From: Methanomassiliicoccaceae archaeon
GTDB taxonomy: Archaea > Thermoplasmatota > Thermoplasmata > Methanomassiliicoccales > Methanomethylophilaceae
Length of the DNA stretch: 44,189 nucleotides
Direction of reading: 5' to 3'
NCBI GenBank assembly: GCA_016281925.1
Contig: JAEEJP010000095.1
Location: 1 to 44,189, forward strand
Shown in pieces: positions 12,707 to 42,901 of the stretch. Position numbers and translations under genes: made by a program. Under the pieces are notes generated by a model, which ran no database searches, was not told where the DNA came from, and saw only the letters and a list, made by a program, of their open reading frames with translations. Each line of letters begins with the position of its first letter. Position 1 is the stretch's first letter.

Positions 12707-12943
12707 ATGACCGACGAAACCTACCACAAATGCATGACGTGCAGGCTATGCAGGCATTCCGGCGACGTATGGGAATGCGTCCCGGACGGCAGAGCCACCG
12801 AACCGGCGTCATCCTGCGGAAGGTACCGTCCCGGATGCTGCGAGGCTTGCGCTTCATATTCGGACGGGAAATGCTCGCTCACCGGCAATGAGGTGTATGA
12901 TCTGGACGTATGCCAGTTCTACGATCCGTCGTGCCCTGTCTGA
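12707..12943 (+). CDS. Cys-rich 78-aa small protein
   Basis: 78 residues with eleven Cys, arranged CMTCRLC, C, C, GCCEAC, C, C, C. The spacing suggests two metal-binding knuckles or an iron-sulfur/zinc site rather than a membrane protein. A TATA-like element about 27 nt before ATG 12707 supports the start. Its end overlaps the tail of the convergent DUF5685 ORF by 90 bp, which would shrink to 15 bp if DUF5685 ends at its in-frame CGA. Function unknown. Confidence 0.65.
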   Translation: MTDETYHKCMTCRLCRHSGDVWECVPDGRATEPASSCGRYRPGCCEACASYSDGKCSLTGNEVYDLDVCQFYDPSCPV

Positions 12944-13840
12944 TGTGCGTTCTTTTCTGTTGGAAAGCACGTTCTTGATGCTTGCTTTCGCTTTGGCCTC
13001 GCCTGTTATCACTTTTTTGGCAGACTCCGGTATCCCATAATAGACGATGTTGTCGCATAGGGTCTGGTTTCCCCGGAGGGAAGGCCTGATCCTGGAATAG
13101 TGCTCCTGAAGGCTTCCCACGGTCTCTCCGACGACGGAAGTCAGCCGGTACAGGTTGGAATTTATGAACGATTCCGAGTTTATGAACCCGGTCTCGGGAA
13201 GGAAAGGATTGTAAGTCCCGTCCATGTAGTCGTCGTCCAGATCGTCTATGGCATCCATAATATAGACGGCGGCGGTGAGCTCCTCGAATATCCTGTCCAG
13301 ATCTGCGCCGGAGCAATCCCCGGCGATGTCTTTGAGAGCGCCGGAGAGCCCTTCGCCGAAGGTAAGGCCCATTCTCCTGGCATCCTTGCATCCGGCCAGC
13401 TCCATATCGCGGAGGGCGGAGAAGCCTTCGCCCACCATGCCGTCGTATTCCGGATATTGGCTCACGGCTTTGTCTATGGCCTTCCTGAGAGCGGCGGAGA
13501 TGGCTTTGGTCTTCATGGACGGTTTGTCGGTTTCGTCGTCGTAAAGCTCCCATTTCGTAAGGATCACGGTATATGCTGCCATCTTCCTCATGAGATCCGA
13601 ATCGGCCTTCGGCCTGTCGAGCACGCATATGGTCTTCTCGGTGGGCCCGAATTCCAGGGCTTCGCCCATCACGCCGGAGAGAAGTATCGTGTTGAACGTC
13701 ATATCGAAATTCACGGTTGCGGTGCTTCTCAGCCCGAATCCCGCTCTGAGATGGTGGCACCCTTCGCAGTAATACTTCCTGTATCTTTTGAGGTCCGTGG
13801 GCTGGAGCCTTTGATACGAAGGGACCGTGTATCCGAACAT
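12854..13840 (-). CDS. DUF5685 family protein
   Basis: 328 codons on the conventional code from ATG 13840. ATTATAACG about 25 nt upstream supports a leaderless start. The opening MFGYTVPSYQRL...RYRKYYCEGCHHL and the motif STATVNFDMTF are typical of DUF5685, an all-helical family with conserved Cys and Asp residues (AVYIMDAIDDLDDDY). These resemble the Asp-rich motifs of prenyl-chain-binding enzymes, but no activity is established. In-frame CGA at 12929-12931 is the only CGA I saw in the gene. It follows NRKERTSDRA and probably marks the real end (303 residues); the last ~25 codons lie antisense to the Cys-rich gene. Divergent from the candidate RiPP precursor. Confidence 0.8.
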   Translation of the reverse strand: MFGYTVPSYQRLQPTDLKRYRKYYCEGCHHLRAGFGLRSTATVNFDMTFNTILLSGVMGEALEFGPTEKTICVLDRPKADSDLMRKMAAYTVILTKWELYDDETDKPSMKTKAISAALRKAIDKAVSQYPEYDGMVGEGFSALRDMELAGCKDARRMGLTFGEGLSGALKDIAGDCSGADLDRIFEELTAAVYIMDAIDDLDDDYMDGTYNPFLPETGFINSESFINSNLYRLTSVVGETVGSLQEHYSRIRPSLRGNQTLCDNIVYYGIPESAKKVITGEAKAKASIKNVLSNRKERTSDRARRIVELAYVQIIHLIAGERAFPVRI

Positions 13841-14012
13841 CGGAGGCCCATCGCAGGCGACGTTATAATGCTTGCCGATGCCTCGCCGGCAGAGGCGGAG
13901 GGCCCTCCGGCAGCCCTCTCCCCGGAAGCATCTGGCTTTACGACAACGACACGCAAAATAAATTCTGGATTCGCCAATCATTAAATATCGGGAAACAGTA
14001 CTGCGTGCATTA

Positions 14013-14043
14013 ACCGAATATAAGATTCGGACTGGTGAATGAA
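14013..14043 (+). promoter_or_regulatory. Promoter and ribosome binding site of the Cys-rich peptide gene
   Basis: GAATATAAG (about 14016-14024) is a TATA element about 22-25 nt before the start, and GGTGA (14034-14038) is a Shine-Dalgarno match 5 nt before ATG 14044. Together they favour ATG 14044 over GTG 14035. Confidence 0.6.
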
Positions 14044-14340
14044 ATGTCTAGCGATTCCGCTTCCGTAGACAAACTTGCAGCACTTTATGAGAGCCAATCA
14101 CCCGTGGCGTTCACTGCGCTGGCCATGGAGGGCCTTCCCGAGAGCGACCATGCCGAGCGTTTCGACAAAGGAGACCATGAGGGGCTTTCCAAATGTGACT
14201 ATTGCTGCTGCGACGACAAGGGCTGCTGCAATTCGGGCGGATGGTATGCCTGCCTCGCCGGCGGCATAATATGCTGCTGCGCCTGCTGCTGCTACATAAC
14301 GCACGGATTCAACGGCGTCTGGACCTACTGGCCTTTCTGA
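14044..14340 (+). CDS. Cys-rich precursor peptide of a candidate RiPP
   Basis: 98 residues. Residues 1-50 are Cys-free, acidic and leader-like (helix around SVDKLAALYESQ, then GLPESDHAERFDKGDHEG). Residues 51-98 carry thirteen Cys (51, 54-56, 61, 62, 70, 77-79, 81-83) in runs such as CCC, with Gly-rich spacers and an aromatic tail ending TYWPF. It lies 43 bp upstream of a radical SAM/SPASM enzyme on the same strand. Leader/core split, Cys-dense core and SPASM partner together suggest thioether cross-linking (sactipeptide or ranthipeptide type). Alternative: a Cys-rich membrane-associated or metal-binding peptide, because residues 68-84 are hydrophobic. No protease or exporter is adjacent. Confidence 0.7.
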   Translation: MSSDSASVDKLAALYESQSPVAFTALAMEGLPESDHAERFDKGDHEGLSKCDYCCCDDKGCCNSGGWYACLAGGIICCCACCCYITHGFNGVWTYWPF

Positions 14341-14383
14341 TCGGCGATTCTTTCGCCCCATCGCAGACGATAAGGGCCTCTAC

Positions 14384-15517
14384 ATGAAAGACTATCTTTC
14401 AGTGGTCATAAAGCCGACCTTATACTGCGATACCGATTGCAGGCACTGCTACCACACCCCCGAAGAGAGGGTGAAAGGCAGCATGTCCCTGGCCACGGTA
14501 GAGAACATAATGAGGCTTGTCTCGGAGGAGTATGAGGCGGCCTGGTTCATATGGCACGGCGGTGAGCCTCTCACGCTTCCCCTGTCTTTCTATAAGGAAG
14601 CGATAGCCCTCGAGGAGAAATACTTCGGCAAAGGGTCTTTCCGCTACGGAAATACGATACAGACGAACGGCCTCGGCCTGAACAGGAGGCTGATGGCCTA
14701 TTGCAGGCAGAAGCAGATCAACATCGGCGTATCGTATGAGGGGCCGTTCAACGGCGTGCTGAGGGAAGGCGACGCCTCCAAAGCGATAGCATCCCTGTCG
14801 GACAAGGACAACAAATACTCGGCCAGCGCGACCATCTCGGCGGAGACCGCGCTCCGTCAGAAAGAGATATACCGCTATTTCCGCGGCAGGAATACCGACG
14901 TGTCTCTGTCGCCGGTCATCCCGGCCGGATGCGCCAGATGCGGCGGCCTGGTGCCGGATCCCGACGATTACATAAGAGGAAGCATCGAGGCATTCGACGA
15001 CTGGCTTCTGGATTCCGGCTCAGAGATACCGCTAATCCCCCATTATCTGTATGTGCTCAATTATCTTGGCGAGCCCGTCCCGTCCGATTGCGCCCATACC
15101 TCCTGCCTCACGAAATGGATATGCGTGAACCCGGACGGTACGGTATACCCCTGCGCCAAAGCCTGCCCCCCGGAATTCAGGATGGGTAACATCAATGATG
15201 CGGCTTCCATCGCAGAGCTGTTCAGATCCGAAGGATTCGGGAACATCCTCCGCGGGTCCGTGGAGAGGCGCGAGAAATGCAGGGGCTGCGAGATTTACCG
15301 CTATTGCGGCGGAGGATGCAGCATGGATTTCTATCACGAATGCGGCATCGAGAACAATACCGGGGATTCATGCAGGATATACAGGGAGATATTCGCGCAT
15401 GTGGCCGCAGAAATCCAGAAGATACTGGATGAAAAGCCGGATATGGGCCGCTACAACCGTTTCATAAGGGACGCGGTTATCGGCAAGCTTGTTAATCCTA
15501 AAACCGTCATACAATGA
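14384..15517 (+). CDS. Radical SAM/SPASM peptide-modifying enzyme
   Basis: 377 residues. C15-x3-C19-x2-C22 (CDTDCRHC) binds the SAM-cleaving 4Fe-4S cluster; GGEP at 59-62 contacts the SAM amino group. The C-terminal SPASM region (CLTKWICVNPDGTVYPCAKAC ... CRGCEIYRYCGGGC ... C) has enough Cys for auxiliary clusters. The family includes sactionine and ranthipeptide synthases and anaerobic sulfatase-maturating enzymes. There is no sulfatase nearby, and the protein starts at strand 1 without a PqqD-like recognition domain, so leader recognition would need another route. Cotranscribed with the Cys-rich peptide by position. A hairpin terminator follows. Confidence 0.9.
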   Translation: MKDYLSVVIKPTLYCDTDCRHCYHTPEERVKGSMSLATVENIMRLVSEEYEAAWFIWHGGEPLTLPLSFYKEAIALEEKYFGKGSFRYGNTIQTNGLGLNRRLMAYCRQKQINIGVSYEGPFNGVLREGDASKAIASLSDKDNKYSASATISAETALRQKEIYRYFRGRNTDVSLSPVIPAGCARCGGLVPDPDDYIRGSIEAFDDWLLDSGSEIPLIPHYLYVLNYLGEPVPSDCAHTSCLTKWICVNPDGTVYPCAKACPPEFRMGNINDAASIAELFRSEGFGNILRGSVERREKCRGCEIYRYCGGGCSMDFYHECGIENNTGDSCRIYREIFAHVAAEIQKILDEKPDMGRYNRFIRDAVIGKLVNPKTVIQ

Positions 15518-15521
15518 GAAG

Positions 15522-15549
15522 GCCGCCCGAACGAACCGGGACGGGCGGC
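15522..15549. terminator. Terminator hairpin between convergent genes
   Basis: GCCGCCCG (15522-15529) and CGGGCGGC (15542-15549) form an 8-bp stem with a 12-nt loop, between the radical SAM stop codon and the ridA stop codon. Confidence 0.7.
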
Positions 15550-15556
15550 ATAGGGA

Positions 15557-15928
15557 TCAGCGGAGGGCGACCGCATCGATCTCGATTTTGGAACCTTTAG
15601 GAAGGGATGCGCATCCGACGCAGGATCTGGACGGGTACGGCTTCCGGAAGAACTCCGCATAAACGGCGTTGACCTCCGGGAAAGCGTCCATGTCAGTCAG
15701 ATAAATGGTTGTCCTCAGGACCCTGTTCATCGACGATCCCGATGCTTCTACTACGCTCTTCAGATTCTCCAGAGCCTGCTTTGCCTGGTCCGCCATCGAT
15801 TCCGGCATCTTCCCAGTGGCCGGATCGACAGGTATCTGTCCCGAAACGAATACGAGCTCTCCGCTTGCCACCGCCTGGGAATAAGGCCCCGCCGCGGCCG
15901 GCGCTTTGTCTGTGCTGATTTTTTCCAT
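15557..15928 (-). CDS. ridA: RidA family enamine/imine deaminase
   Basis: 123 residues, the standard length. RidA hydrolyses reactive 2-aminoacrylate-type enamines released by PLP enzymes. Signature regions are all present: GPYSQAVASGELVFVSGQIPVDP near the start, and MNRVLRTTIYLTDMDAFPEVNAVYAEFF. The catalytic Arg lies in PSRSCVGCASLPKGSKIEIDAVA at the C-terminus. It follows cobO on the same strand with a 4-bp gap, so the two are probably cotranscribed. Confidence 0.95.
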   Translation of the reverse strand: MEKISTDKAPAAAGPYSQAVASGELVFVSGQIPVDPATGKMPESMADQAKQALENLKSVVEASGSSMNRVLRTTIYLTDMDAFPEVNAVYAEFFRKPYPSRSCVGCASLPKGSKIEIDAVALR

Positions 15929-15932
15929 GGTA

Positions 15933-16478
15933 TCAATACTCTATCCCTTTTCTGGCGCCGATCCCTCTGTCGAACGGATGCTTCACCAGCTTCATTTCCG
16001 TCACGAGGTCGGCGTAATCGATGATCTCCTGGGGAACTCCCCTGCCGCTGAGGACGACTTCGGTGTTGGGGGCGCGTCTTTCCAGCATGGCGATGACATC
16101 TTGCGGGCTGACGAGGCCGAATTTCATCGAATTGTTGATCTCATCCAGTATCACAAGGTCGTATTTCCCCGAAGTGAGGGCCTCTTCGGCTTTGGCCAGG
16201 CCTTTTCTGGTCAGCTCGATGTCTTCCTCGCGGGTGATCTCCTTCCCGGCCATGTGGTCGGCGCCCATCGGGACGATCTCGAAATTAGGGATCATCTCGG
16301 CAGCCATGTGTTCCCCGTATCCTTTGGCTGGCTTTAGGAACTGCAGCATGACGACGTTCAGACCTCTGCCGGCAGCCCTGAAAGCGAGCCCGAGGCATGC
16401 GGTGGTCTTGCCTTTGCCGTTTCCGGTGTATACCTGCACCAATCCGAGTTTCCTTTTGATTTCAGCTTCGGCTGACAT
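15933..16478 (-). CDS. cobO: Cob(I)yrinic acid a,c-diamide adenosyltransferase
   Basis: 181 residues. Transfers the adenosyl group of ATP to the cobalt of corrinoids, making coenzyme B12-type cofactors. P-loop GNGKGKTTACLG near residue 19, conserved FLKPAKGYGEH and LDEINNSMKFGL (Walker B and partner), and SGRGVPQEIIDYADLVTEM all match CobA/CobO/BtuR. ATG 16478 is preferred: a TATA-like AATTAAAAC near 16510-16518 puts the transcript start downstream of the alternative ATG 16505. First gene of a pair with ridA. Corrinoids are central to methyl-dependent methanogenesis. Confidence 0.95.
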   Translation of the reverse strand: MSAEAEIKRKLGLVQVYTGNGKGKTTACLGLAFRAAGRGLNVVMLQFLKPAKGYGEHMAAEMIPNFEIVPMGADHMAGKEITREEDIELTRKGLAKAEEALTSGKYDLVILDEINNSMKFGLVSPQDVIAMLERRAPNTEVVLSGRGVPQEIIDYADLVTEMKLVKHPFDRGIGARKGIEY

Positions 16479-16564
16479 GATAGCGGACCATGGATGCACG
16501 TGCACGGTTTTAATTGTGGCGAATGCTGCATAAGCGGTAAATACGTCGGCAATATAGTCGCGCA

Positions 16565-19035: not shown

Positions 19036-19803
19036 ATGAGGCAGCCCCAGGAATCGATGAAATTGGTGCTTCTGCGCCACGGGCAGAGCGAATGGAACAG
19101 GCTCAATCTGTTCACCGGATGGACCGACGTGGATCTGTCCGATCAGGGCCGCGAGGAAGCCAAGGCCGCAGGGATGCTGATGAAGGAGGCGGGGCTGGAT
19201 TTCGATGTCTGCTACACTTCATACCTCAAGCGCGCGATACACACGCTGAATCTGGCTCTCGAATCCATGGACAGGGAGTGGCTCCCGGTTATCAAGACAT
19301 GGAAGCTTAACGAGCGCCATTACGGAGCGCTCCAGGGCCTGAACAAATCCGAGACCGCCCAGAAATACGGCGAGGAGCAGGTCAGGGTCTGGAGGCGGTC
19401 CTATGACGTATGCCCGCCCGCCCTCGAAGAGCACGACGAGAGAAATGCGGCGAACCAGGACCAATACAGAAATGTGGACAGGTCGGAGGTTCCGCTCACG
19501 GAAAGCCTGGAGATCACTGTAAGGCGCGTCAAGCCCTATTTCGAGAGCGAGATAAAGCCCCGCATGCTGGCGGGGGAAAGGGCGCTCATAGCGGCCCACG
19601 GGAACTCTCTGAGGGCGCTGGTGATGACGCTCGAAGGGCTGTCTCCGGAAGAGATCGTAGGCGTCAACATCCCCACGGGTGTGCCCTTGGTCTATGAGCT
19701 GTCGGAGGACATGAGGATCCTGGACAAAAGATATCTCGGAGATCAGGAAGCCCTGCGCTCGAAGATCGATGCCGTCAAGAACCAAGGAAAGAAGCGATCC
19801 TGA
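19036..19803 (+). CDS. gpmA: 2,3-bisphosphoglycerate-dependent phosphoglycerate mutase
   Basis: 255 residues. Interconverts 3- and 2-phosphoglycerate. LLRHGQSEWNRLNLFTGW contains the phosphohistidine, followed by TSYLKRAIHT, LNERHYGALQGLNK and AAHGNSLRALV, all diagnostic of dPGM. Most archaea use the cofactor-independent enzyme, so a bacterial-type dPGM points to an old transfer, as in some other Thermoplasmata. GAGG stands 5 nt before ATG 19036. It sits 105 bp before aspS, same strand. Confidence 0.96.
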   Translation: MRQPQESMKLVLLRHGQSEWNRLNLFTGWTDVDLSDQGREEAKAAGMLMKEAGLDFDVCYTSYLKRAIHTLNLALESMDREWLPVIKTWKLNERHYGALQGLNKSETAQKYGEEQVRVWRRSYDVCPPALEEHDERNAANQDQYRNVDRSEVPLTESLEITVRRVKPYFESEIKPRMLAGERALIAAHGNSLRALVMTLEGLSPEEIVGVNIPTGVPLVYELSEDMRILDKRYLGDQEALRSKIDAVKNQGKKRS

Positions 19804-21233: not shown

Positions 21234-21296
21234 TCCAAACACTTTCGGGCACCCCCTCTTCTTCAGTTATATAGTTGGTCATCTTCACTCGATGTG

Positions 21297-21929
21297 ATGG
21301 CCGCGCCCGGTGATGTCTATGAAAGAGAGCTGAAATCGCTTCTGATAGGCGATGAGAAGGCTATCTCGAAGACCGTCAAAACGTGCAGCGCCATGGAGAA
21401 AGCCGGCTATATGCTCATGCGCTCCGAGCCTTTCCTCGTCATCAGGGCCGCAGGCTCTCTGGGAGTGGATCTGGTTGCGCTCAGATGGGATTTCTCATTT
21501 CCCATCGAGGTCAAGAGCTCGGCGGATTCCACGCTCCATTTCAGCAGAAGCCAGAGGCTGTCCGAGCAGGCAGACAGGATGCTCTCGGACTGCGAGAGCT
21601 CCCATCTGGTCCCGATATACGCATTCAGGCTGAAAGGCATCCGCGGGGATCCCTGGAGGGTGTTCACGATACCCACCGACCACGAGTTCAAAGGCCGCCA
21701 CGCGATTCTGTACCGCAGGATGCCGAAGATAGACGTCTCGGCCGAGGGCAACTACATCATGCGCTGGGAGGAGGGCATGAAGCTGTCCGATCTCATCCTC
21801 TACCTCGGAATGTCCGATTATTCCGTGGAGCGAGGGCGGCCGTCAGAACTCATAGGGCTCATCATCAGTCAGCCTCGGTCGATCATCATCCGTCGCCGCC
21901 CGCGTGCGCTATCGCCGGCGCTTATTTAA
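21297..21929 (+). CDS. Archaeal Hjc-like / restriction-fold nuclease
   Basis: 210 codons by the conventional code. TTATATAG about 27 nt upstream supports a leaderless ATG 21297 (GTG 21294 possible). YERELKSLL, the acidic VDLVALRWD and IEVKSS match the Holliday-junction resolvase Hjc/endonuclease core (E...D...ExK). A ~20-residue insertion sits between the first Glu and the core compared with Hjc, and a C-terminal extension follows. In-frame CGA at 21831-21833, the first in the gene, follows LGMSDYSVE; the 32 residues beyond it are Arg/Ile-rich and read like non-coding sequence, so the protein probably ends at 178 residues. Confidence 0.75.
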   Translation: MAAPGDVYERELKSLLIGDEKAISKTVKTCSAMEKAGYMLMRSEPFLVIRAAGSLGVDLVALRWDFSFPIEVKSSADSTLHFSRSQRLSEQADRMLSDCESSHLVPIYAFRLKGIRGDPWRVFTIPTDHEFKGRHAILYRRMPKIDVSAEGNYIMRWEEGMKLSDLILYLGMSDYSVERGRPSELIGLIISQPRSIIIRRRPRALSPALI

Positions 21930-29218: not shown

Positions 29219-30553
29219 ATGAAGCAGAAAAGGGTCCTGGCGATCCACGACATATCATGCGTCGGAAAATGCTCGCTCACAGTGGCTCTTCCGATCATTT
29301 CGGCCGCCGGAGAGGAATGCGCCGTCCTCCCCACCGCCGTGCTGTCCACGCATACCGGGGGTTTCACCGGATATACTTTCAGGGATCTTACCGAGGACAT
29401 CGAGCCGATCGGAGCCCACTGGGATTCACTGGATCTGAGGATGGATGCGGTCTACACCGGATTCCTGGGATCTTTCGAGCAGATCGATCTCGTAAAGAAT
29501 CTTATAGACAGTCTCCCCGGTCCGAGGCCCGCCGTCTATGTGGATCCGGTGATGGCCGACAAAGGGAAGATGTACGCGATTTTCGGCCCGGATTTTCCTG
29601 CCGGCATGAGGAGCCTCTGCGAAAAGGCGGACCTGATAATGCCCAATCTGACCGAACTGGCGTTCATGCTCGGTTTCGAGTATGAGGAAGGCCCGTATTC
29701 CGAGGGATACATCGAAAGCGTATTCGATAGGGCGGAAGTTCTCGGTGTCCCGCGCATCGTCATAACCGGGGTAAGCTTCGAGCCCGGGAGATTGGGGGCT
29801 GTATGGAAGGATTACCGCACCGGCGAGACAGGAAGCTACATGAGGGACGAAGTGCCCGGCTATTACCATGGGACGGGCGATATCTTCGGCTCCGCTCTTG
29901 TGGGGGCGATGGAAGCCGGGGTTCCGCTCGGAGATTCCGTCTCCATCGCCATCGATCTCACCGTAGGAAGCATCATCCGCACTTATTCCGCCCGCACGGA
30001 CGTGAGATTCGGCGTCAATTTCGAATGCGGTCTGCTTGGATATGCGTATTCCATCAGAGACAAGGCGCCGGTGCGCGTGGCTTCTGCCGCAGAAGACCTG
30101 GAATCGATAGAGCGCATGGCGCAGGCCATATGGCACGAGGCATACCGGAACATCGTCCCCGAGAGCCAGATAAATTATATGCTGACCAGATTCCAGTCCG
30201 CGGAGGCGATCGCGGAGCAGCTGTCTAAAGGATACGCCTACGACATCGCCCGCACCGACGGGAATGACGTCGGATATGTAGGGTACAGACTGGACGGAAA
30301 CGATCTGTTCGTATCGAAGATCTATGTCATGGCCCAGCACAGAAAGGAAGGGATCGGAAAGGCTCTCCTTCAGATGGCTTTCGAAGCCGGGAAAGCGGCC
30401 GGGGCGGATCGCATGCACCTCACGGTCAACAAAAACAATTCAAAGGCCATCGCGTTCTACGAGAGCATGGGCTTGAAAAAGATCTCCGAATCGAAGACCG
30501 ACATAGGCGAGGGTTTCTTCATGGACGATTTCATCATGGGGCGCGGGATTTGA
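29219..30553 (+). CDS. Pyridoxal/pyridoxamine kinase fused to a GNAT acetyltransferase
   Basis: 444 residues. Residues ~1-280 are a PdxY/PdxK-type ribokinase-fold kinase: AIHDISCVGKCSLTVALP, PTAVLSTHTGGF, YVDPVMADKGK, LIMPNLTE and the anion hole/catalytic HGTGDIFGSALVGA. Residues ~286-444 are a GNAT domain with YVMAQHRKEGIGKALLQMA as the acetyl-CoA pyrophosphate loop and NKNNSKAIAFYESMGLKK at the end. Each half is full length and the join is in frame, so this looks like a true fusion. It suggests PLP salvage coupled to acetylation of an unknown substrate. GGAGG precedes ATG 29219. The stop overlaps the next start (TTGA). Confidence 0.9.
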   Translation: MKQKRVLAIHDISCVGKCSLTVALPIISAAGEECAVLPTAVLSTHTGGFTGYTFRDLTEDIEPIGAHWDSLDLRMDAVYTGFLGSFEQIDLVKNLIDSLPGPRPAVYVDPVMADKGKMYAIFGPDFPAGMRSLCEKADLIMPNLTELAFMLGFEYEEGPYSEGYIESVFDRAEVLGVPRIVITGVSFEPGRLGAVWKDYRTGETGSYMRDEVPGYYHGTGDIFGSALVGAMEAGVPLGDSVSIAIDLTVGSIIRTYSARTDVRFGVNFECGLLGYAYSIRDKAPVRVASAAEDLESIERMAQAIWHEAYRNIVPESQINYMLTRFQSAEAIAEQLSKGYAYDIARTDGNDVGYVGYRLDGNDLFVSKIYVMAQHRKEGIGKALLQMAFEAGKAAGADRMHLTVNKNNSKAIAFYESMGLKKISESKTDIGEGFFMDDFIMGRGI

Positions 30554-31698
30554 GCTCCGAAGAGCTGTTCGCGGAAGGATACAGGCTGTATTCCGAAGCG
30601 GAATCCCCTGCCGACCTCGAAAAGGCCCGCAGCCTCCTCGGTATGGCCGCCATGGAAGGTCATGCAATGGCCCAGGACATCCTGGGGAACATGTATGAGG
30701 ACGGAGACGGCGTGGAGGAAGATCTGGCCACCGCCGCTCACCTTTATTCCCAATCCGCGGATCAGGGCTGCCACAAAGGCATTTTCGATCTGGGGATGCT
30801 CATCCTCGACGGCAGAGGCGTGCCCAAAGACGAGTTGCGCGCGTTCTCGATGATCAGAAAGGCCGCGGAAAGCCGGGATCCCGACCACCTGTTCATGCTG
30901 TCCGTCCTTTACCTCAAAGGCATAGGCACAGAAAAGGATGAGAAAGAGGCCCTCAGGCTTCTGAAGGAATCGGCAGAGCTCGGGAGCTCCGAAGCCAAGG
31001 CAAACCTGGGCGCGATGATGCTTTCGGGAGACGGCCTGCCCAAAGATGAGGAGGGCGCTTTCGGCCTTCTTAAGGAGGCGGCAGAGGACGGGGAATGCTC
31101 GGCGATGTGCAACCTCGGGATGATGTATGAAGGCGGACTCTGGGTAGGCAGAGATCTGGATGCTGCTCTTTCCTATTACAGGCAGGCGGCCGATCTGGGC
31201 TATTGCCCGGCGTACTACCACATGGCCGTGCTTGCCGGCGAAGGCCTGACAGACATCGCCGACGCCGACCCCGACGGCATCCTCGGCGAGGTGGCCGGGG
31301 GCGGAGAAGCGGAAGCCATCGCGGCTTTGGGCGAGGCGTACTATCACGGCGACGGCGTCGGTTCTGACCTGGAGATGGCCGCCCAGTATTTCCGTGCGGG
31401 TACCGATCTAGACGTCCCGTCGTGCATGTACAACCTGGGGGTCATGATAATCCGCGGCGAAGCCGATGCCGAATACGACGGAGAGGAATACGATCTCATC
31501 CTGGCCGCGGCCGACGCCGGATACGGGCCCGCAGAAGAGCTGGCTTCGCGTTCCGGGGAAGGGAACCGATGTTCATACCGGCAACCGAGAAAGAAGTCCG
31601 CGCCAGAGGATGGGATTCTCTCGACGTCATACTCGTCTCCGGCGACACATACACCGACAATTCCTACAACGGGACGGCTGTGGTCGGCCATTGGCTGA
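30550..31698 (+). CDS. Sel1-repeat protein 1
   Basis: Starts at TTG 30550, overlapping the previous stop codon. About nine Sel1 repeats (GNMYEDGDGVEEDLATAAHLY, SVLYLKGIGTEKDEKEAL and so on) build a helical solenoid for protein contacts. No signal peptide, so cytoplasmic. Conventional translation runs 382 residues and overlaps ygiQ by 130 bp, but Sel1-like sequence stops near residue 339. Codon 340 is CGA (31567-31569), the first in-frame CGA of the gene, and its A begins the ygiQ ATG. CGATG thus replaces the expected TGATG overlap. I take 30550-31566 as the true coding span. Confidence 0.85.
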   Translation: MSSEELFAEGYRLYSEAESPADLEKARSLLGMAAMEGHAMAQDILGNMYEDGDGVEEDLATAAHLYSQSADQGCHKGIFDLGMLILDGRGVPKDELRAFSMIRKAAESRDPDHLFMLSVLYLKGIGTEKDEKEALRLLKESAELGSSEAKANLGAMMLSGDGLPKDEEGAFGLLKEAAEDGECSAMCNLGMMYEGGLWVGRDLDAALSYYRQAADLGYCPAYYHMAVLAGEGLTDIADADPDGILGEVAGGGEAEAIAALGEAYYHGDGVGSDLEMAAQYFRAGTDLDVPSCMYNLGVMIIRGEADAEYDGEEYDLILAAADAGYGPAEELASRSGEGNRCSYRQPRKKSAPEDGILSTSYSSPATHTPTIPTTGRLWSAIG

Positions 31699-33638
31699 TT
31701 GACCACGGATTCAGGGCCGGAATGATCGCCCAGCCAAGGCTGGATTCTCCGGAAGACATACTGCGCCTCGGAACCCCAGAACTGTTCTGGTCGGTATCCG
31801 CCGGCTGCGTGGATTCCATGGTGGCCAACTATACGCCGACGAACAGGCGCAGGAAAGACGACGACTTCACTCCCGGAGGGGCCAACAGCCGCCGCCCCGA
31901 CCGCGCCTGCATCGCATATTCCAATCTCATCAAGAGATACGCCAAAGGGAAGCCGATAATCCTGGGCGGAATCGAGGCCAGCCTGCGCCGCATAGCGCAT
32001 TACGACATGTGGGACAATGCAGTCCGCCGCTCGGTCCTTCTGGATTCCAAGGCCGACGCCATCGTATACGGCATGGGCGAGCTTTCCAATCTGGAGATCG
32101 CCCAGAGAATCCGCGGCGGGAAGGATTGGAAGGATGTCAGGGGGATCTGCTACATGTCGTCCGAGCTGCCTGAGCCTTCGGTGATTCTCCCGCCATATGA
32201 GGAATGCGCTTCAGACACGGAGGCATTCGCGGAGATGTTCCGCATATTCAGGGACAATTCGGATCCCGTATCCGGCAGGAGGATGGCCCAGGCATACGGG
32301 AAAAGGTATCTCGTCCATAACCGTCCGCAGAGGCTGATGACCCAGAAGGAGCTGGATTCAGCCTACGAATCCGACTACGAGAACGCTGTGCACCCTCTGT
32401 ACGCCTCCCAGGGGAAGGTGAAGGCAATGGATACCGTCAGGAATTCGATAACCACCCACCGCGGATGCTACGGGGACTGCTCTTTCTGCGCCATAGCCGT
32501 CCATCAGGGGCGGGCGGTGGTCTCCCGCTCGGAAGAATCCATACTTAGGGAAGCAAGAAAGCTCGCGTCGAATCCCTCATTCAACGGGATCATCCAGGAC
32601 ATAGGCGGGCCGACAGCCAATATGTACGGCATAGACTGCCCGGTGAAATCCATCGCAGGAGCCTGCAAGGACAGGAGATGCCTATTCCCTGCCCCGTGCC
32701 CCAGGCTTCCGATAGACCATTCCTCCCAGACGGAGCTTCTGAAAAAGATCTCGGCGATACCCGGGGTGAGGAAAGCCTTCGTCAACTCCGGCATCCGCTA
32801 CGACATGATCGCCGCTGACTCCGGCGGAGGACAGGAATACCTCGACGAGCTGGTCATACGCCACGTCTCCGGACAGATGAAGATAGCTCCGGAGCACATT
32901 TCTGACAGAGTCCTGCGCCTGATGGGGAAGCCTCCCAGAGGTGTCCTCGAGGATTTCAGGGAGATGTTCGCGGACTCCTGCTCCAGATGCGGCTCGAAGC
33001 AGTATCTGACGTACTATTTCATCGCTGCCCATCCCGGCTGCACCGAAGACGATATGAGGGATCTGGCCGATTATTGCCGCCGCGTCCTCAGAACCAACCC
33101 GGAGCAGGTCCAGATCTTCACCCCGACGCCGTCCACAGTCTCGACGATGATGTACCATTGCGGGAAGGATCTCCGCGGGAAATATGTGGGATCGGAGCAT
33201 TCCATGCAGAGGAAACAGAGGCAAAAGGACATATTGGTCCCGAGGAATGCCAGGAAACGATGGAGATCGACGTCAGGATATCCGGGAAGAAGACCCCAGT
33301 CAGGGTTGATTTCGAGGATACGGGGAGCAGAATCTGCCGCTACGGCGTCGAAGGCGGGAAGCGGTTCGCGGCTCTGTCCGATTACCTTTCGGATTCGCCG
33401 CCGGAAGTGGTGGAGGACATCCTGGCCTGCCTATTCAGCGGGAAGAAAACGTCCCCGGATATTTTCCGGGAATACGTGTCGTCCGACGAATTCATTCTGG
33501 CGAAAAGGCCGCTGTTTCTGGAGCGCGGCGGATTCACATGCACTTCCGAAGGCGATTTCCGCAGCCTGTCGGATTCCGCCCAGAGGCTCTACGATTCGGG
33601 GCTGCTGGGGGCCGACGATTTCAGCAACACATACATAA
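31569..33638 (+). CDS. YgiQ family radical SAM protein (UPF0313)
   Basis: Radical SAM enzyme of unknown reaction. N-terminal DVILVSGDTYTDNSYNGTAVVGHWL, then SAGCVDSMVANYTP and GGIEASLRRIAHYD, the cluster motif C-x3-C-x2-C in RGCYGDCSFCAI, and IAPEHISDRVLRLMGKP, all typical. Family proteins end soon after the PFTG/MQK-like segment, here QRKQRQKDILVP. Conventional translation instead continues to 690 residues, through ~125 Arg/Ser/Trp-rich residues out of frame over the SprT-like gene. Codon 564 is CGA (33258-33260), the only in-frame CGA I saw, and its A starts the next ATG (CGATG). The real protein is probably 563 residues. Confidence 0.9.
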   Translation: MFIPATEKEVRARGWDSLDVILVSGDTYTDNSYNGTAVVGHWLIDHGFRAGMIAQPRLDSPEDILRLGTPELFWSVSAGCVDSMVANYTPTNRRRKDDDFTPGGANSRRPDRACIAYSNLIKRYAKGKPIILGGIEASLRRIAHYDMWDNAVRRSVLLDSKADAIVYGMGELSNLEIAQRIRGGKDWKDVRGICYMSSELPEPSVILPPYEECASDTEAFAEMFRIFRDNSDPVSGRRMAQAYGKRYLVHNRPQRLMTQKELDSAYESDYENAVHPLYASQGKVKAMDTVRNSITTHRGCYGDCSFCAIAVHQGRAVVSRSEESILREARKLASNPSFNGIIQDIGGPTANMYGIDCPVKSIAGACKDRRCLFPAPCPRLPIDHSSQTELLKKISAIPGVRKAFVNSGIRYDMIAADSGGGQEYLDELVIRHVSGQMKIAPEHISDRVLRLMGKPPRGVLEDFREMFADSCSRCGSKQYLTYYFIAAHPGCTEDDMRDLADYCRRVLRTNPEQVQIFTPTPSTVSTMMYHCGKDLRGKYVGSEHSMQRKQRQKDILVPRNARKRWRSTSGYPGRRPQSGLISRIRGAESAATASKAGSGSRLCPITFRIRRRKWWRTSWPAYSAGRKRPRIFSGNTCRPTNSFWRKGRCFWSAADSHALPKAISAACRIPPRGSTIRGCWGPTISATHT

Positions 33639-37343: not shown

Positions 37344-37370
37344 GTGCAACCCCGTTCCATATAGCTTCGG

Positions 37371-39464
37371 TTATTTATCCATTTTTTCAGGCCTGACCCA
37401 AGGCTCTGCCGCCGCCGCGATCATGCCGATCAGCTCGTCTTCCTTGGCGGCCCAGAATCCCATGTCGCAGACAAGTATCAGCCGCCTTTTCGCCCTGGAT
37501 ACGGCGGTGTTGATGACTTTCAGGCCTATCGGCGAAGCGGAGCTGGTGAACCTCAGCGGGACGTCCCTGTCTACGGCGCCGTTGTCGGCCACGCTCAGCA
37601 TCACCGTGTCCCATTCCCTGCCCTGCGAAGCGTGGACGGTCATAATCGAATCGCGGTATTTCCCCGCGCCCCGCCTCAACAGCTTAGCCTGGTCGGCATA
37701 CGGAGTAAGAACCGCTATTTCCCCGGGCTCAGGCGATTCGGCTGCGAGAAAGGCTTCGACCGCCTCTTTCTCGGCTTCGTTAGCCCTCTCCTTCCTCTCT
37801 GCGCCTCTGGCGTCGATGCTGCATATCTCCAGATTGCCCGCGCCGCAGCCCGACATGCCGTTGCGGTAAACGAATCTGTCCAGGATGGATGCGAGATTCT
37901 GGCCGAAACGGTGGGATTCGGTCAGGTTGCAGCGCGAGGTCATCCTGAATTCGGGCTCCGTCCCGGATGCGTACGCCAGGGCCAAGGCATCCCTCGGCCA
38001 TGACAGCAGCTCTTCGCAGTAGAGAGCGCTCATGTCCCAGAGGAAGGCATTCCTGAGCCTGCCTCCTTTGGCCGCGGAAGAGACGAGGATGTCGGCGTCG
38101 ATTTCGCATACCGGAGGGAGCTGCATATGGTCCCCCAGCATGGCCACGGGCACCCCGTTGGTCATCAGGCACGCGGCATGGACCAGATTGCAATATCCGG
38201 CCTCGTCCAGGAATATGCGGTCGGCGTCCATCTCCATCCGCCCGTCGTCCTCCGATCCTTTCGGTCTGAAGCGGGAAATGAACTGGAGCGGGGTCCCGGC
38301 GATTATGGAGACGTCCCTCACGCGTCTGAATGTGCATCTGGACAGGATGCTTTCCAGCTCGTCCTCCATCGACGATATCATCCCGGCTATCTCGGAATCG
38401 CTTATCCCTGCGTATTCCTCTATGTCCAGGGCCGGGCGGTCTCTGTCGTACAGTGCCGATTTTGCTTCGGCCAGCACGCTTCTCAGATCCCTGCCTTCGA
38501 GATTGCAGGCATCCCCCATGCGGGACCGGCAGAGCGCGATAACCGGCCTCATGTCCTCCATCAGGCTCCCTCCGAAATCTTCGGTCCCTGACATGGCTTC
38601 CAGGCGTTTTCCGATGACATCTATCTTGGGCCTGAGGCGGTCGCATGAGCGCTCGAACAGAATCTCCTCCATATTGGCTATGCTTTTTCTGAGCCTTTCC
38701 GCGCGCTTCTGGGCCTGCCCGTCCTCGCACATTTCCGGATGCTCCAGAAGGAACCCTTTCGAAGGGATGCCGAGACGGAGTATCCCGTCGCCCAGATCTT
38801 TCCTGCCGAAAGCCTTTAGGATCCCTCTCAGCACCTGCTCCACGGAATTGTTGGTGGGGGCGAATACCGCGACCCTGAGACCTCTGGCTATGCACGTCCT
38901 GATGCAGGTGGCCAGCACGAACTGCGTCTTGCCGGTCCCGGGAGCTCCCCATACATACGACAGCCCGCTGGACATTATGCTCTCTACGGCCGAAATCTGC
39001 TGCTCCGAAGGGGAGGACCCGTCGGGGAAGATGGGATCCCATGCCGAAGGAGGACGGGGCGGGATCCCTATGGACCGGGAATGCCTGGACAAGAATTCGG
39101 ATACGGCCCTCACCAGGAATTTCATGTCAGACATCACCATGAGGCGGGGATGCCCGACGGACATGAGGGACAGCAGCTCCGGCCCGGGACGTATGACAAT
39201 GGTGCGGGAAACCTCGTCGTAGCGGGTGAATCCGGCATCTTCGCCCCGGTATAGATCGGCCCCGGCCATAAGCATGAGCGATTCGGTATCCTGAAGCGGC
39301 GACGAAAGATGCAGAACGGCATAATCGCCGCGGACATCATACGACGATACTTCCGATACGCTCATGCCAATCGGCGGATCGGTGGCGAACTGCATGTCTT
39401 CGATGTACGAATAGAGCGACGAGGCGGAATCCGACAGCATCTCAGGCAGCTCTTCGCGGTCCAT
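37371..39464 (-). CDS. Superfamily 1 DNA/RNA helicase (UPF1/SMUBP2-like, AAA_11-AAA_12)
   Basis: 697 residues. Walker A WGAPGTGKTQFVLA near residue 172, motif Ic/II region IFLDEAGYCN, motif III LGDHMQLPPVCE, ESHRFGQNLASIL (motif IV), VHASQGREWDTVMLS (motif V) and NTAVSRAKRRLILV (motif VI) give a complete SF1B helicase. Between motifs Ia and II lies a ~200-residue helical insertion. Residues 1-130 are a beta-rich nucleic-acid-binding region. TTAAATCC about 28 nt upstream supports leaderless ATG 39464. I saw no in-frame CGA in its 697 codons. Confidence 0.92.
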   Translation of the reverse strand: MDREELPEMLSDSASSLYSYIEDMQFATDPPIGMSVSEVSSYDVRGDYAVLHLSSPLQDTESLMLMAGADLYRGEDAGFTRYDEVSRTIVIRPGPELLSLMSVGHPRLMVMSDMKFLVRAVSEFLSRHSRSIGIPPRPPSAWDPIFPDGSSPSEQQISAVESIMSSGLSYVWGAPGTGKTQFVLATCIRTCIARGLRVAVFAPTNNSVEQVLRGILKAFGRKDLGDGILRLGIPSKGFLLEHPEMCEDGQAQKRAERLRKSIANMEEILFERSCDRLRPKIDVIGKRLEAMSGTEDFGGSLMEDMRPVIALCRSRMGDACNLEGRDLRSVLAEAKSALYDRDRPALDIEEYAGISDSEIAGMISSMEDELESILSRCTFRRVRDVSIIAGTPLQFISRFRPKGSEDDGRMEMDADRIFLDEAGYCNLVHAACLMTNGVPVAMLGDHMQLPPVCEIDADILVSSAAKGGRLRNAFLWDMSALYCEELLSWPRDALALAYASGTEPEFRMTSRCNLTESHRFGQNLASILDRFVYRNGMSGCGAGNLEICSIDARGAERKERANEAEKEAVEAFLAAESPEPGEIAVLTPYADQAKLLRRGAGKYRDSIMTVHASQGREWDTVMLSVADNGAVDRDVPLRFTSSASPIGLKVINTAVSRAKRRLILVCDMGFWAAKEDELIGMIAAAAEPWVRPEKMDK

Positions 39465-39524
39465 GGATGCGGACCCTCGGAAACGGGATTTAAGCCGTTC
39501 CCGAGGGCAATAAGATTGTTAGGC

Positions 39525-39950
39525 TCAGGCGTAGAAGCTGGAATAGGAAGAGCTGTCCTTCGGAGGGAATTCGGGCTTGCCCGCTTCGAACTCTGTCCAA
39601 TCCGCCGGCTCCCTGGAGAGGGCGGCGACGGTCATGTCGGTCCTGAACTAGATGCACTCTTTCTCGACGCTGTACTTGACGCCGTGGATGATGCCGATGC
39701 AAGCGTCCAGGAAATCCCCGTCGGGATCCTCCGCGCTCCAATCGAATTTGAGGGAGGTCAGCTTGGATGTTCTGACGCCCAGCAGCCCCCTGGTCTTTTT
39801 TACGGCCCTGTGGAGGACGCAACCCCTTCCCAGATCCAGCGCCCAGTAGGATGCGTCCCTGTCAGCGTCATCCTCCAGCCTTTTCCATCCGGTGAAATCG
39901 TCCAGCTCGAGGCCGGCATACATCCGATATTGGGTCTCTCCGGAAATCAC
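39525..39950 (-). CDS. Unknown protein with in-frame TAG (possible pyrrolysine codon)
   Basis: The frame reads ~100 residues ending HGVKYSVEKECI, then TAG (39648-39650), then 40 more sensible residues (FRTDMTVAALSREPADW ... SSYSSFYA) before TGA. Composition and codon choice stay gene-like on both sides of the TAG. In a pyrrolysine-decoding archaeon the natural reading is one 141-residue protein with Pyl. The start is uncertain: GTG 39950 has AAAATACC about 27 nt upstream, while ATG 40025 and ATG 39923 are alternatives. ATG 40025 would overlap the TATA box of the divergent protease gene. No known family recognised. Confidence 0.55.
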
Positions 39951-40043
39951 GACCCGGCAATGCCCGACCGGGTATTTTTGTTTAAGGTTGCTAAACCTGT
40001 TCCGAAGTCCGCATTTATATTTCATCAGCGCATTCCGTGGCTC

Positions 40044-40898
40044 ATGTTCGCAGATGCATGCCGCATTGCGAAGGGATTCACGCGCCCCGTCGCCACGTCC
40101 CTCCGTTATCAGGACGGGGTCGTCAGCACGGTCCTCAACTCATTCATCATCGTCAACGAAGATGGCTGGGCGATAACCGCCGGCCACACGTTCGATTCCC
40201 TGGTGAAGTTCGAAGGCGACCGCAAAAAGATGGCCGAAATCAAGCAGATGAGCGCAGGTTCTTCCGAGCCAGCCAAAATGGATCCCAAATTCATCCTGAA
40301 CCATTCGTTTTGGTGGGGATGGGACGGGGTGATGATCAGCGAAGTCACCGTAGACAGGAAGATCGACATAGCCCTCGTGAAGCTGGCCAATTTCAGGCCG
40401 AACATGGTCCCGAACTATCCGGTATTCGCCGATCCCGGAGACATATCGGTGGGCAGCAGCGTCTGCAGGCTCGGCCATCCGTTCGTCGATCCCCCGGCGG
40501 ATTTCGATGCCGCCCGCAATGCGTTCCGCATCCCCAAAATCGATTCGGACGCCTGCATCTTCGCCAACGACGGCATGGTTTCCAAGATAGTCACGGTGAA
40601 GAAAGCCGGGAACAGCCCGTTCGACGCCGTGTACCTCGACACTTCCACCCCCGGATACAGAGGGCAGGCCGGCGGCCCGATAGTCAACGCAGAAGGCAAA
40701 GTCTGCGGCATGCAGATCAACACAATCGCCATGCCGTTCGGGTTCCATTTCTTGGATGCCGAGAAGAATCCCCTCGACGACCAGTTCTGCTGCGTAGGGC
40801 GCGCCGTCCATGTGAAGACGATCCGCCAGTTCCTGGATTCCAAGAATATAATGTACAGCAGCGACGACCCCGGCGAGGAATACAGGATCGTTGGCTGA
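40044..40898 (+). CDS. Trypsin-like protease-fold protein with catalytic Ser replaced by Ala
   Basis: 284 residues, no signal peptide. ATTTATATTTC about 25-28 nt before ATG 40044 supports a leaderless start. The chymotrypsin-type double barrel is recognisable: H48 in AITAGHTF, D108 in KIDIALVKL. The nucleophile site reads RGQAGGP, with Ala (GCC, 40668-40670) where GxSGGP expects Ser. A single TCC-to-GCC change would explain it. So it is probably a pseudoprotease that binds but does not cut. It lies tail to tail (5-bp gap) with a paralogue that keeps the full triad. Confidence 0.8.
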   Translation: MFADACRIAKGFTRPVATSLRYQDGVVSTVLNSFIIVNEDGWAITAGHTFDSLVKFEGDRKKMAEIKQMSAGSSEPAKMDPKFILNHSFWWGWDGVMISEVTVDRKIDIALVKLANFRPNMVPNYPVFADPGDISVGSSVCRLGHPFVDPPADFDAARNAFRIPKIDSDACIFANDGMVSKIVTVKKAGNSPFDAVYLDTSTPGYRGQAGGPIVNAEGKVCGMQINTIAMPFGFHFLDAEKNPLDDQFCCVGRAVHVKTIRQFLDSKNIMYSSDDPGEEYRIVG

Positions 40899-40903
40899 GG
40901 GAA

Positions 40904-41581
40904 TCAGCTTTCGGACGCCCTGATGCGGTAGGATATCCCGGCCGCATCCAGGAACCTCCTCACAGAGCCGATATGCAGGGCGATGCCTTCGACGGACATG
41001 AGGGGCCTCATGACGCCTCTGTCGTCCGCCCCGCTGTATCCCAGATGCGAGCGGCGCGTGGATGTCTGCATGCCCATGACGCATCCGTCGCAGCCGAATA
41101 CCGGCCCTCCGGATTGGCCTTTGATGCCGGCAGAGGATGTGACGATATACCCTGTGTCCGGGCCGCCGCAGATGCGCGATATGATCCCGCTGTTGAAAAG
41201 GGGAAGCGCGGACGCTATTCCGCAGCCTTCCTCCACCGCATAGCCGAGCCTTCCGAACGATGTCCCCAGGGAGATGGCGTCCCCGTCCATAAGCATCGGA
41301 TAATCGGATATGCGTTCTGGTTCGAAAGGATCCAGCCTCACGGCGGCCAGATCTGTGTCGTCGTCCAGGATTACTTCGTCCGCGACGACGCCTTCCCAGC
41401 CCCAGACGAGATCGGCGCCGTCTTTTTCCAGAGCCTCGCCGAGAATGTGCTTGGCGGTGACGGCCCAGCCGGACCTGTTCAGCACCATGAATGTTCCGCA
41501 GCCGGCCCAGGAGTTCTTCGGGTCGGATACCAATACGGGACGCGCGAATTCTTTGGCGGCTCCGCAAGCCTCTGCGAACAT
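40904..41581 (-). CDS. Trypsin-like serine protease with intact triad
   Basis: 225 residues, cytoplasmic by sequence. H45 (AVTAKHILGEA), D77 (DDDTDLAAVRL) and S157 (GIKGQSGGPVFG) form the triad. The opening MFAEACGAAKEFARPV parallels MFADACRIAKGFTRPV in the convergent neighbour, so the two are paralogues from a local duplication. A TATA-like GTTAAATAG about 27 nt upstream supports leaderless ATG 41581. Substrate unknown; a regulatory pairing with the Ser-less paralogue is an attractive inference. Confidence 0.82.
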   Translation of the reverse strand: MFAEACGAAKEFARPVLVSDPKNSWAGCGTFMVLNRSGWAVTAKHILGEALEKDGADLVWGWEGVVADEVILDDDTDLAAVRLDPFEPERISDYPMLMDGDAISLGTSFGRLGYAVEEGCGIASALPLFNSGIISRICGGPDTGYIVTSSAGIKGQSGGPVFGCDGCVMGMQTSTRRSHLGYSGADDRGVMRPLMSVEGIALHIGSVRRFLDAAGISYRIRASES

Positions 41582-41758
41582 GCGCCCACATCCTTGCGGT
41601 TCTATTTAACGGTGCGATATGGCGCGCAAACAGTTCGCCGGACAAATGCCGAACCGTAAGATATCAGCATGGACAGCTCATCGAGAACATCGGTGAATGC
41701 GTCCGGCCGCCTTTTCCCCTTGCAGCCGGAGCGCAGATTTCGGTTTGGATCCGCCGGT

Positions 41759-41857
41759 TCATTCGAATTCCGGCTTCATGAATGGCTGCCCGCAAGACGG
41801 GCACATCGAAAACGGGCAGAGGGACGATATTTCGCATCCACAATACGCGCATCTCAT
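41759..41857 (-). CDS. 32-aa zinc-ribbon microprotein
   Basis: MRCAYCGCEISSL then CPFSMCPSCGQPF: two CxxC pairs in 32 residues, a minimal zinc ribbon. CTTATAACC about 26 nt before ATG 41857 is the standard leaderless arrangement of this genome. It is in frame with the GIY-YIG ORF upstream and would be its C-terminus on the conventional code, but the intervening ~75 codons look non-coding and follow a CGA. I therefore favour a separate gene. Confidence 0.5.
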   Translation of the reverse strand: MRCAYCGCEISSLCPFSMCPSCGQPFMKPEFE

Positions 41858-42901
41858 ATTCCGGTGAATCCCGACGGAGGTTATAAGCCGTTCTGTCATA
41901 CTTTTTGAGGATTGAATAACCCTAAAATGCGTTGGATTATAGAATCCGAATCTCCCCAGAATAAAGGCTATTTTATTCCGGACAAATCGCGGGCATCCCT
42001 GATTTTGGCGACAGTTCCGATATGATTTGATCGGCGGTCCCGGCGGCCGGATGGATGGTCCCCTCCCGGGCGGAAGAAGAGGTCGCTCATCCTCGCTGGG
42101 TCCCTCCGGATCCCCGATGAGGCGCCCGCCTCTCTTCGGAGGCGTGTCCTCGTCGGCATGCGGCAGGCGGATTGCGGACAGGGATACGCGGAGCAGTTTG
42201 GCGGCGGCGGTGAAGATCATCCCGTCAGACATCGAAACGGTTTTTTTCCCGGCGAGCCGCCCGGCGCATCTGGCTTTGAAGGAATGCCTTCCGTATGCCA
42301 GGTCCGTGCTGATAGGGAGGCCGGAACAGGCTGTCCCCAATCTGATCCCGTCGGCATAGATTGACACCGGCTTCCTCCCGGCCGCCCTGAACACGGCTCT
42401 GCGCATCTCGCCGCGGTCGGATCCGTGCCGGGGATAAAGCCTCCTATCGGCGAAGATGAACTCCGAACCGCTTTCGCATCTGCGCATCGAACCGCCGTCT
42501 GTCATGTTGTAAAGCTTATCCCTTCCGAACGCATAGATCAGCGCGCATTCGACGTCGTTCAGCGATTCTGCGGAGCACGGGATGATCTGGACGGCCGCGG
42601 CCATTCCGGATCTTATATCTGCATAGACGTTGCTGTTGCCGGAACCGGCCAGATGGTCGCGCAATCTGGACTCGACATCGACGGACTGCCCGACATAGCC
42701 TGCATTATACTTCGAAAGATTCCTAGGGATGCGGCCCCCTCTGTAGATCAGTATGATGTAGCATCCAGGCACTTTCCTTTGACATCCGCAACGAGCATAT
42801 GAGCGCAAAAACTCGTCCCAAGGCACGAAATCCCCTTCGAAGACCCAGTCCAGTATCTTCTCAGGAGGTCCGCGAGAGCTTACGGAACCTATGTGTTTCA
42901 T
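41759..42901 (-). CDS. GIY-YIG domain protein with PEGA-like region
   Basis: The conventional ORF is 380 residues from ATG 42901; a TATA-like CTTTAAATACTG lies about 50 nt upstream and AGGGGA precedes the ATG. Residues ~45-135 are a GIY-YIG nuclease domain (GCYIILIYRGG, AGYVGQSVDVESRLRDHL with catalytic Tyr/Arg, DVECALIYAFG with Glu, YNMTDGG with Asn). Residues ~170-245 resemble a PEGA beta-sandwich (VSIYADGIRLGTACSGLP, YGRHSFKA). The first in-frame CGA is at 42083-42085, after EGPSEDE. Beyond it the frame is Pro/Arg-rich and contains a promoter, so the protein probably ends there at 272 residues. Confidence 0.7.
   Translation of the reverse strand: MKHIGSVSSRGPPEKILDWVFEGDFVPWDEFLRSYARCGCQRKVPGCYIILIYRGGRIPRNLSKYNAGYVGQSVDVESRLRDHLAGSGNSNVYADIRSGMAAAVQIIPCSAESLNDVECALIYAFGRDKLYNMTDGGSMRRCESGSEFIFADRRLYPRHGSDRGEMRRAVFRAAGRKPVSIYADGIRLGTACSGLPISTDLAYGRHSFKARCAGRLAGKKTVSMSDGMIFTAAAKLLRVSLSAIRLPHADEDTPPKRGGRLIGDPEGPSEDERPLLPPGRGPSIRPPGPPIKSYRNCRQNQGCPRFVRNKIAFILGRFGFYNPTHFRVIQSSKSMTERLITSVGIHRNMRCAYCGCEISSLCPFSMCPSCGQPFMKPEFE

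Follow-up and report, generated by a model that had tools for sequence, protein, structure and literature searches.

The present study reveals that the arginine codon CGA almost certainly ends genes in a genus of Methanomethylophilaceae (g1; 31 genomes), and that it very probably does so as a stop codon read by the release factor aRF1. The window analyzed here, a stretch of DNA of 44,189 nucleotides, is contig C121 of the draft genome G000 (1.96 Mb in 122 contigs, 85.9% complete and 2.4% contaminated), one of the 31 genomes of the genus. Among named genomes, those closest by release factor are Methanomethylophilaceae metagenome-assembled genomes, mostly of animal-gut origin. In the sampled stretches, the codon is nearly absent from gene interiors outside aRF1 and stands where orthologues terminate. 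Furthermore, the release factor is changed at a codon-reading position, the functional effect of which is suggested by simulations.

CGA at the ends of genes

Our counts come from sampled stretches of genomes at about 51-62% GC, and those for G000 cover 434 kb out of 1.96 Mb. Genes were called throughout with a custom codon-usage gene caller. Under the standard code, these 434 kb hold 340 called genes with 116,176 codons and 118 in-frame CGAs. An earlier note on the window had proposed counting in-frame CGAs by distance from protein ends across the genome; in these 434 kb, 69 of the 118 stood within the last 30 codons of the called genes and 45 further in, most of the latter lying in long open reading frame (ORF) tails or in two genes run together. 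With CGA called as a stop, the same 434 kb gave 388 genes, which ended in TGA (267), CGA (87), TAA (21), and TAG (13). The heaviest use of CGA ends was seen in G028, where the codon closes 75 of 174 genes, that of aRF1 included.

The mean coding score in G000 fell from 0.224 before CGA to -0.301 after it and from 0.261 to -0.360 at TGA, whereas it was 0.271 before and 0.195 after TAG. In G028, the fall at CGA was from 0.351 to -0.671. Where at least 10 in-frame codons followed downstream, coding-like sequence continued beyond 2 of 58 CGA ends in G000 (aRF1 being one) and beyond 0 of 53 in G028; the corresponding counts for TGA were 13 of 216 and 5 of 66, and for TAG in G000 they were 10 of 13. 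TAG thus constitutes an internal control, since it is read through in G000 and the coding score stays positive past it. Sections of PMC4153887 describe amber/pyrrolysine use for the order, and the read-through of TAG fits such use. Among all sense codons, CGA was the one most enriched in the last 20 codons of genes, both in G000 (14.7-fold; 48 in tails and 52 in bodies, p = 3e-32) and in G028 (10.4-fold; 43 and 61, p = 1e-24).

Gene ends were also compared with those of TGA- or TAA-ended orthologues (best match per genome, at least 35% identity, coverage of at least half), and were taken to agree when they lay within 10 residues. Across g1, agreement was found in 435 of 492 pairs for CGA, 5777 of 5947 for TGA, and 322 of 322 for TAA, as against 0 of 66 for TAG; the TAG-ended ORFs (7 genes with standard-ended orthologues) were shorter in all 66 pairs. 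Of the CGA-ended proteins that were off by more than 10 residues, 41 pairs were shorter and 16 longer. Counted per gene by majority, with 23 aRF1 stubs left out, the ends agreed for 67 of 88 CGA-ended genes (17 of 19 in G000 and 22 of 25 in G028), 719 of 756 ended by TGA, 56 of 56 by TAA, and 0 of 7 by TAG. Many of the disagreeing pairs among those inspected stem from a fast-evolving gene near aRF1 (L081:14887-16035), which has no NCBIfam match; it is CGA-ended in several species, and its ends shift.

The aRF1 gene, its residue 68, and tRNA-Arg(UCG)

Within g1, the aRF1 gene itself carries an in-frame CGA at one conserved arginine column in 26 of the 27 genomes covering the site, the remaining one, G028, having CGC. 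No usable aRF1 was available from G002, G004, and G022, and the G017 fragment begins past the site. The codon is number 72 to 87 from the called starts, before the GGQ motif, and its context is NCT-CGA-CTN: GCT or TCT precedes it in 25 of 25 genomes and CTN follows it in 26 of 26. In the three genomes counted, GCT makes up about 6-9% of alanine codons and TCT 3-6% of serine codons. The G028 gene reads GCC-CGC-CTC at this site. Conservation by itself is not the special point, because a few other arginine codons of aRF1 (AGG and CGT) are equally fixed; the special point is that the codon is CGA. The aRF1 gene lies directly upstream of argS (L094:13724-16917), and in G028 it ends in CGATG, overlapping the argS start.

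Elsewhere in these genomes, interior CGAs (more than 12 codons past the start and more than 30 codons before the end) are scarce. Nine g1 genomes, picked for few CGAs in an earlier count, hold 5 of them in 168,234 codons outside aRF1, and all nine have the aRF1 CGA. For genera outside g1, one locus per genome was counted. Genus g5 has 0 interior CGAs in 17,146 codons, and 5 of 5 aRF1 genes there carry a CGA, spread over four positions; g21 has 1 in 11,246 codons and the aRF1 CGA in 2 of 2; and the g22-type genomes (Methanomethylophilus-type) have 4 in 39,669 codons and the aRF1 CGA in 12 of 12. Ten of these twelve were obtained by the gene caller and two by direct look, because the called start fell inside aRF1 in L328 and aRF1 was uncalled in L338; the CGA is at the same codon in both. 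The position of the aRF1 CGA varies between and within these genera. The pooled interior rate, 10 in 236,295 codons, corresponds to a chance of about 1.7% of a CGA in one aRF1 gene. In five outgroup genomes of the order, CGA occurs at 1.5-8.3 per 1000 codons. On 13-kb loci, the output of the caller was implausible in L305 and L318 (39 and 51 interior CGAs) and probably also in L329 (14), and we relied on pooled calls. A small ORF without an NCBIfam match in G014 (L196:17303-17653) carries an interior CGA at codon 73 in a genome otherwise nearly free of the codon, which may reflect either another site with two meanings or an error in calling the ORF.

This pattern suggests that the aRF1 CGA is likely a self-limiting site, where translation would terminate if aRF1 is abundant and would continue with arginine, delivered by tRNA-Arg(UCG), if it is scarce. 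The tRNA was found in 27 of the 31 g1 genomes, G000 included (21 by ARAGORN anticodon and 6 by DNA similarity), and no clear match was found in G013, G016, G017, and G028. Its main type has a 31-39 mismatch in 13 of 13 folded g1 molecules, as against 0 of 13 from other genera, and the G007 type (L391-L398) has C33 in place of the near-universal U33 in 8 of 8. One further candidate, L389 of G034, proved to be a tRNA-Pro and was dropped.

In G028, 43 tRNA matches cover every tRNA type of the complete genome G007 except tRNA-Arg(TCG). The gene of this tRNA is flanked by hypE and a YbhB-like gene in G000, G001, G018, G021, G026, and G029, and stands just beyond hypE in G014 (the names hypE and apt are our reading of the sequences). 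The syntenic block of G028 (Thr tRNA, hypE, YbhB, apt, and the next gene) is intact but lacks the tRNA, a result obtained from the 1.5-kb flanks together with the adjoining locus. The earlier note had counted a normal tRNA-Arg(TCG) against termination at CGA. The tRNA does exist, and this objection holds in part. In this genus the tRNA is unusual, with either the 31-39 mismatch or C33; the aRF1 CGA would need it, and it is missing where that codon is CGC.

The base following the codon (+4) is T at 48 of 87 CGA ends in G000, compared with 73 of 267 TGA ends (p = 4e-6); with CGATG overlaps left out, the counts are 30 of 69 and 56 of 250 (p = 7e-4). At the aRF1 CGA, the +4 base is C in 26 of 26 g1 genomes. 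In the smaller sample of G028, which lacks the tRNA, the bias toward T was not significant (31 of 75 CGA vs 25 of 91 TGA ends, p = 0.07; p = 0.23 without overlaps). This contrast lends weak support to the idea of a stop that needs help where the tRNA competes.

The fourth residue after the NIKS motif, Arg68 in human eRF1, is arginine in all the references aligned, namely human eRF1 and two archaeal aRF1s of solved structure. It is methionine in all 26 g1 rows that reach it. Methionine or leucine is also found in g2-g6, g19, g21-g23, and g26, arginine or lysine in g20, g24, and g25, and arginine or asparagine in the outgroups. In the aRF1 tree, the Met/Leu68 rows form one side of a branch and comprise 54 of 72 rows (support 100/97, midpoint root). 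Simulations of human eRF1 described in section 7 of PMC5681627 predict that, once Arg68 is replaced by alanine (R68A), the penalty against C at the first position drops from about 6 to 1-2 kcal/mol; the section also notes that R68A costs termination efficiency. The simulated effect is that of alanine in human eRF1, not of methionine. Residue 68 could accordingly be a cause of CGA termination, a proposition to which we give an even chance, and it is at best one part. A Tyr-to-Gln change before NIKS was also considered as the cause and dropped, because g5 does not have the change and is equally CGA-depleted. The aRF1 of L082 (G001) and that of L102 (G006) have NIRS instead of NIKS.

CGA ends in the window

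Six genes or ORFs of the window end in CGA, as listed in the table below. For five of them, the earlier note had placed an in-frame CGA, and the codon is indeed in frame at 12929-12931 and 42083-42085 on the minus strand and at 21831, 31567, and 33258 on the plus strand. These had been taken for the only in-frame CGAs, which overlooked the sixth at 19795-19797 (+), at the end of the phosphoglycerate mutase gene. That CGA is otherwise a common triplet here is borne out, with 1026 occurrences vs 1006 of CGC.

Gene ends at CGA in the window (aa, amino acids)
Feature	CGA position	Strand	Gene or ORF	Product
CGA end of DUF5685 gene	12929..12931	-	12929..13840	303 aa
CGA end of 2,3-bisphosphoglycerate-dependent phosphoglycerate mutase gene	19795..19797	+	19036..19797	253 aa
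CGA end of Hjc-like resolvase gene	21831..21833	+	21294..21833	179 aa
CGA end of Sel1-repeat gene	31567..31569	+	30550..31569	339 aa, Sel1 repeats
CGA end of YgiQ family radical SAM gene	33258..33260	+	31569..33260	563 aa
CGA end of GIY-YIG-like ORF	42083..42085	-	42083..43102	229 aa from the later start of the gene caller

The support across these six ends is uneven. Proof by family length, so far as sequence models can give it, is available for YgiQ and phosphoglycerate mutase. Specifically, TIGR03904 matches YgiQ over 1-557 of 558 positions (E = 4.6e-225) and ends at residue 556, 8 codons before the CGA (codon 564); the standard-code ORF would add 126 residues, CGA included. In phosphoglycerate mutase, the match to NF010713 extends to model position 247 of 248, reached at residue 253; the CGA comes next, as codon 254, and there is a TGA one codon further on. 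Both 31567 and 33258 are CGATG stop/start overlaps, the first with the YgiQ gene, and the coding score falls from 0.24 to -0.52 and from 0.12 to -0.43, respectively. At 21831, the call rests on the loss of coding score from 0.39 to -0.45, the Hjc domain covering residues 9-126.

The DUF5685 model (1-271 of 272) ends at residue 275 of 303, the drop in coding score at 12929 is weak (0.23 before and -0.03 after), and the next standard stop lies 24 codons downstream with 2 more CGAs between. Site 42083 is the weakest: its GIY-YIG match is below the cut-off (E = 0.0022), the score changes from 0.09 to -0.54, and the standard ORF runs 107 codons further through one more CGA. In the sampled stretches of the genus, no g1 orthologue was found for any of the six genes. 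The window also holds an ORF that ends in TAG (962-1225, +), for which the genus comparison gave no orthologue.

A proposed route, its rivals, and known code changes

From codon positions, conservation, the presence or absence of tRNAs, and residue 68, all of which are read from the sequence, we infer aRF1 as the terminator, the aRF1 codon as a regulator, and residue 68 as a cause. On this basis, the loss of Arg68 from aRF1 (to Met or Leu) may have loosened the demand for U at the first codon position and made CGA a near-stop, and the codon would then have been purged from nearly all gene interiors. One early CGA would have been kept in aRF1, where competition between termination by aRF1 and decoding by tRNA-Arg(UCG) could limit aRF1 synthesis. 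TGA ends may subsequently have drifted to CGA in several species, G000 included. In G028, which has neither tRNA-Arg(UCG) nor the CGA inside aRF1, the codon would be a plain stop. Taken in this way, the family probably represents a cellular code in mid-change, with CGA ambiguity throughout, an aRF1 switch at shifting positions, use as a stop in some g1 species, and completion in one.

Several observations weigh against CGA as a stop read by aRF1 or against the part given to residue 68. The CGA-ended protein is the shorter one by more than 10 residues in 41 of 492 pairs, and the g1 counts are not independent, the rows being related by descent. The presence of tRNA-Arg(UCG) leaves CGA formally ambiguous in most species, while G013 and G016, which are 87-88% complete, have the aRF1 CGA and no clear match to the tRNA. 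As G028 is sister to the rest of g1 in the aRF1 tree, the aRF1 CGA may never have existed in its lineage. Met68 is also present in g23, g26, and a single g2 genome, all of which use 1.1-2.3 in-frame CGAs per 1000 codons, and residue 68 therefore does not suffice. Besides, the relaxation predicted by the simulations in PMC5681627 should extend equally to CAA and CAG; yet CAG is a common codon, and the end enrichment of CAA is 1.1- to 2.7-fold, like that of other rare codons.

A hungry or unassigned CGA, at which ribosomes stall because tRNA-Arg(UCG) is weak or lost and are released by Pelota/ABCE1 rather than aRF1, is an unlikely alternative that draws on the tRNA itself, abnormal across g1 (31-39 mismatch in 13 of 13, C33 in 8 of 8) and missing in G028, and on weak second matches to the aRF1 model in these genomes, presumably Pelota. 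It would require rescue for the ordinary termination of 75 of 174 sampled genes in G028, and it leaves unexplained why aRF1 keeps CGA, why the NCT-CGA-CTN context is fixed, and why residue 68 has changed. Still less probable is C-to-U editing of mRNA that turns CGA into UGA and leaves aRF1 ordinary. Plant organelles do edit CGA to UGA, and a C-to-U deaminase that acts on tRNA is known from archaea. Editing would nevertheless have to act on at least a fifth of gene ends as well as on aRF1, and it accounts neither for Met68 nor for the fading of the +4 bias where the tRNA is lost.

Least credible of all is that CGA is an ordinary, avoided arginine codon and its ends are stop-loss mutations or assembly errors, even though a single transition separates CGA from the main stop, TGA, and the genome is a draft. 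The earlier note had offered mutation or consensus error as one model and avoidance with chance stop loss as another. The former is made unlikely by the recurrence of CGA at the ends of homologous genes in separate genomes; consensus error in particular would have to strike several separately named genomes that share CGA ends. The YbhB-like gene beside tRNA-Arg(TCG), for example, ends in CGA in G000, G029, and G001, and at least three isolate series (RGIG, Tb.RUG, and SIG) include genomes with CGA ends. Avoidance with chance stop loss fails on the agreement of CGA ends with TGA/TAA orthologue ends (435 of 492 pairs), for which read-through TAG gives 0 of 66. The model in that note which fits G000 genome-wide, and the related genomes, is that CGA is unassigned or read by the release factor, and termination by aRF1 is the form of it that we prefer.

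The aRF1 frame continues in frame 0 past CGA, without the frameshift of the prfB type; aRF1 would work like prfB and is not a member of that type. RF2, the product of prfB in bacteria, and aRF1 belong to different protein families. Both genes have an early in-frame codon in a fixed context at which their own factor would terminate (for prfB, as covered in parts of PMC12421855), but in prfB it is a standard stop, UGA, bypassed by frameshift, whereas the archaeal gene has a sense codon there, decoded as arginine without a change of frame.

Sense-to-stop changes have been reported only from mitochondria and plastids in the literature searched. The known cases are mitochondrial AGR, UCA, and UUR and, in a peDinoflagellate plastid, UUA/UCA (passages of PMC6821328 and PMC12574857); the latter report presents the plastid example as the first to be known beyond mitochondria. 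As far as those passages go, they resemble ours in that the sense codon stands at gene ends only, with release factor changes and, as far as G028 is concerned, lack of the cognate tRNA. In contrast, the present case concerns a cellular archaeal genome, the arginine codon CGA, and an aRF1/eRF1-type factor, and in most g1 species the tRNA persists, as does a single CGA inside the gene for the release factor. In the open-access literature, preprints being outside its scope, the portions of sources available gave no earlier prokaryotic or nuclear sense-to-stop case. The CGA/CGG reassignments found by Codetta, in the relevant parts of PMC8629427, likewise change the meaning of CGA and involve CGN-box tRNAs, but those are sense-to-sense changes (Trp, Gln) in low-GC bacteria, and ours is sense-to-stop in archaea of the GC range given above. 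Most g1 tRNA-Arg(UCG) share an opened anticodon stem with the tRNAs with a 4-bp anticodon stem of PMC13092985; in g1 it is the loop-side pair (31-39) that is opened, a form which that report, in the sections concerned, counted but did not study for tRNA-Trp.

Standard-code annotation of these gut methanogens would give false C-terminal tails and fusions. The findings also single out one residue as a candidate determinant of first-position specificity in eRF1-type factors, and they point to likely release-factor autoregulation in archaea. Furthermore, one archaeal family seems to show avoidance, ambiguity, use, and completion of a codon change, and theories of code change could therefore be tested on data.

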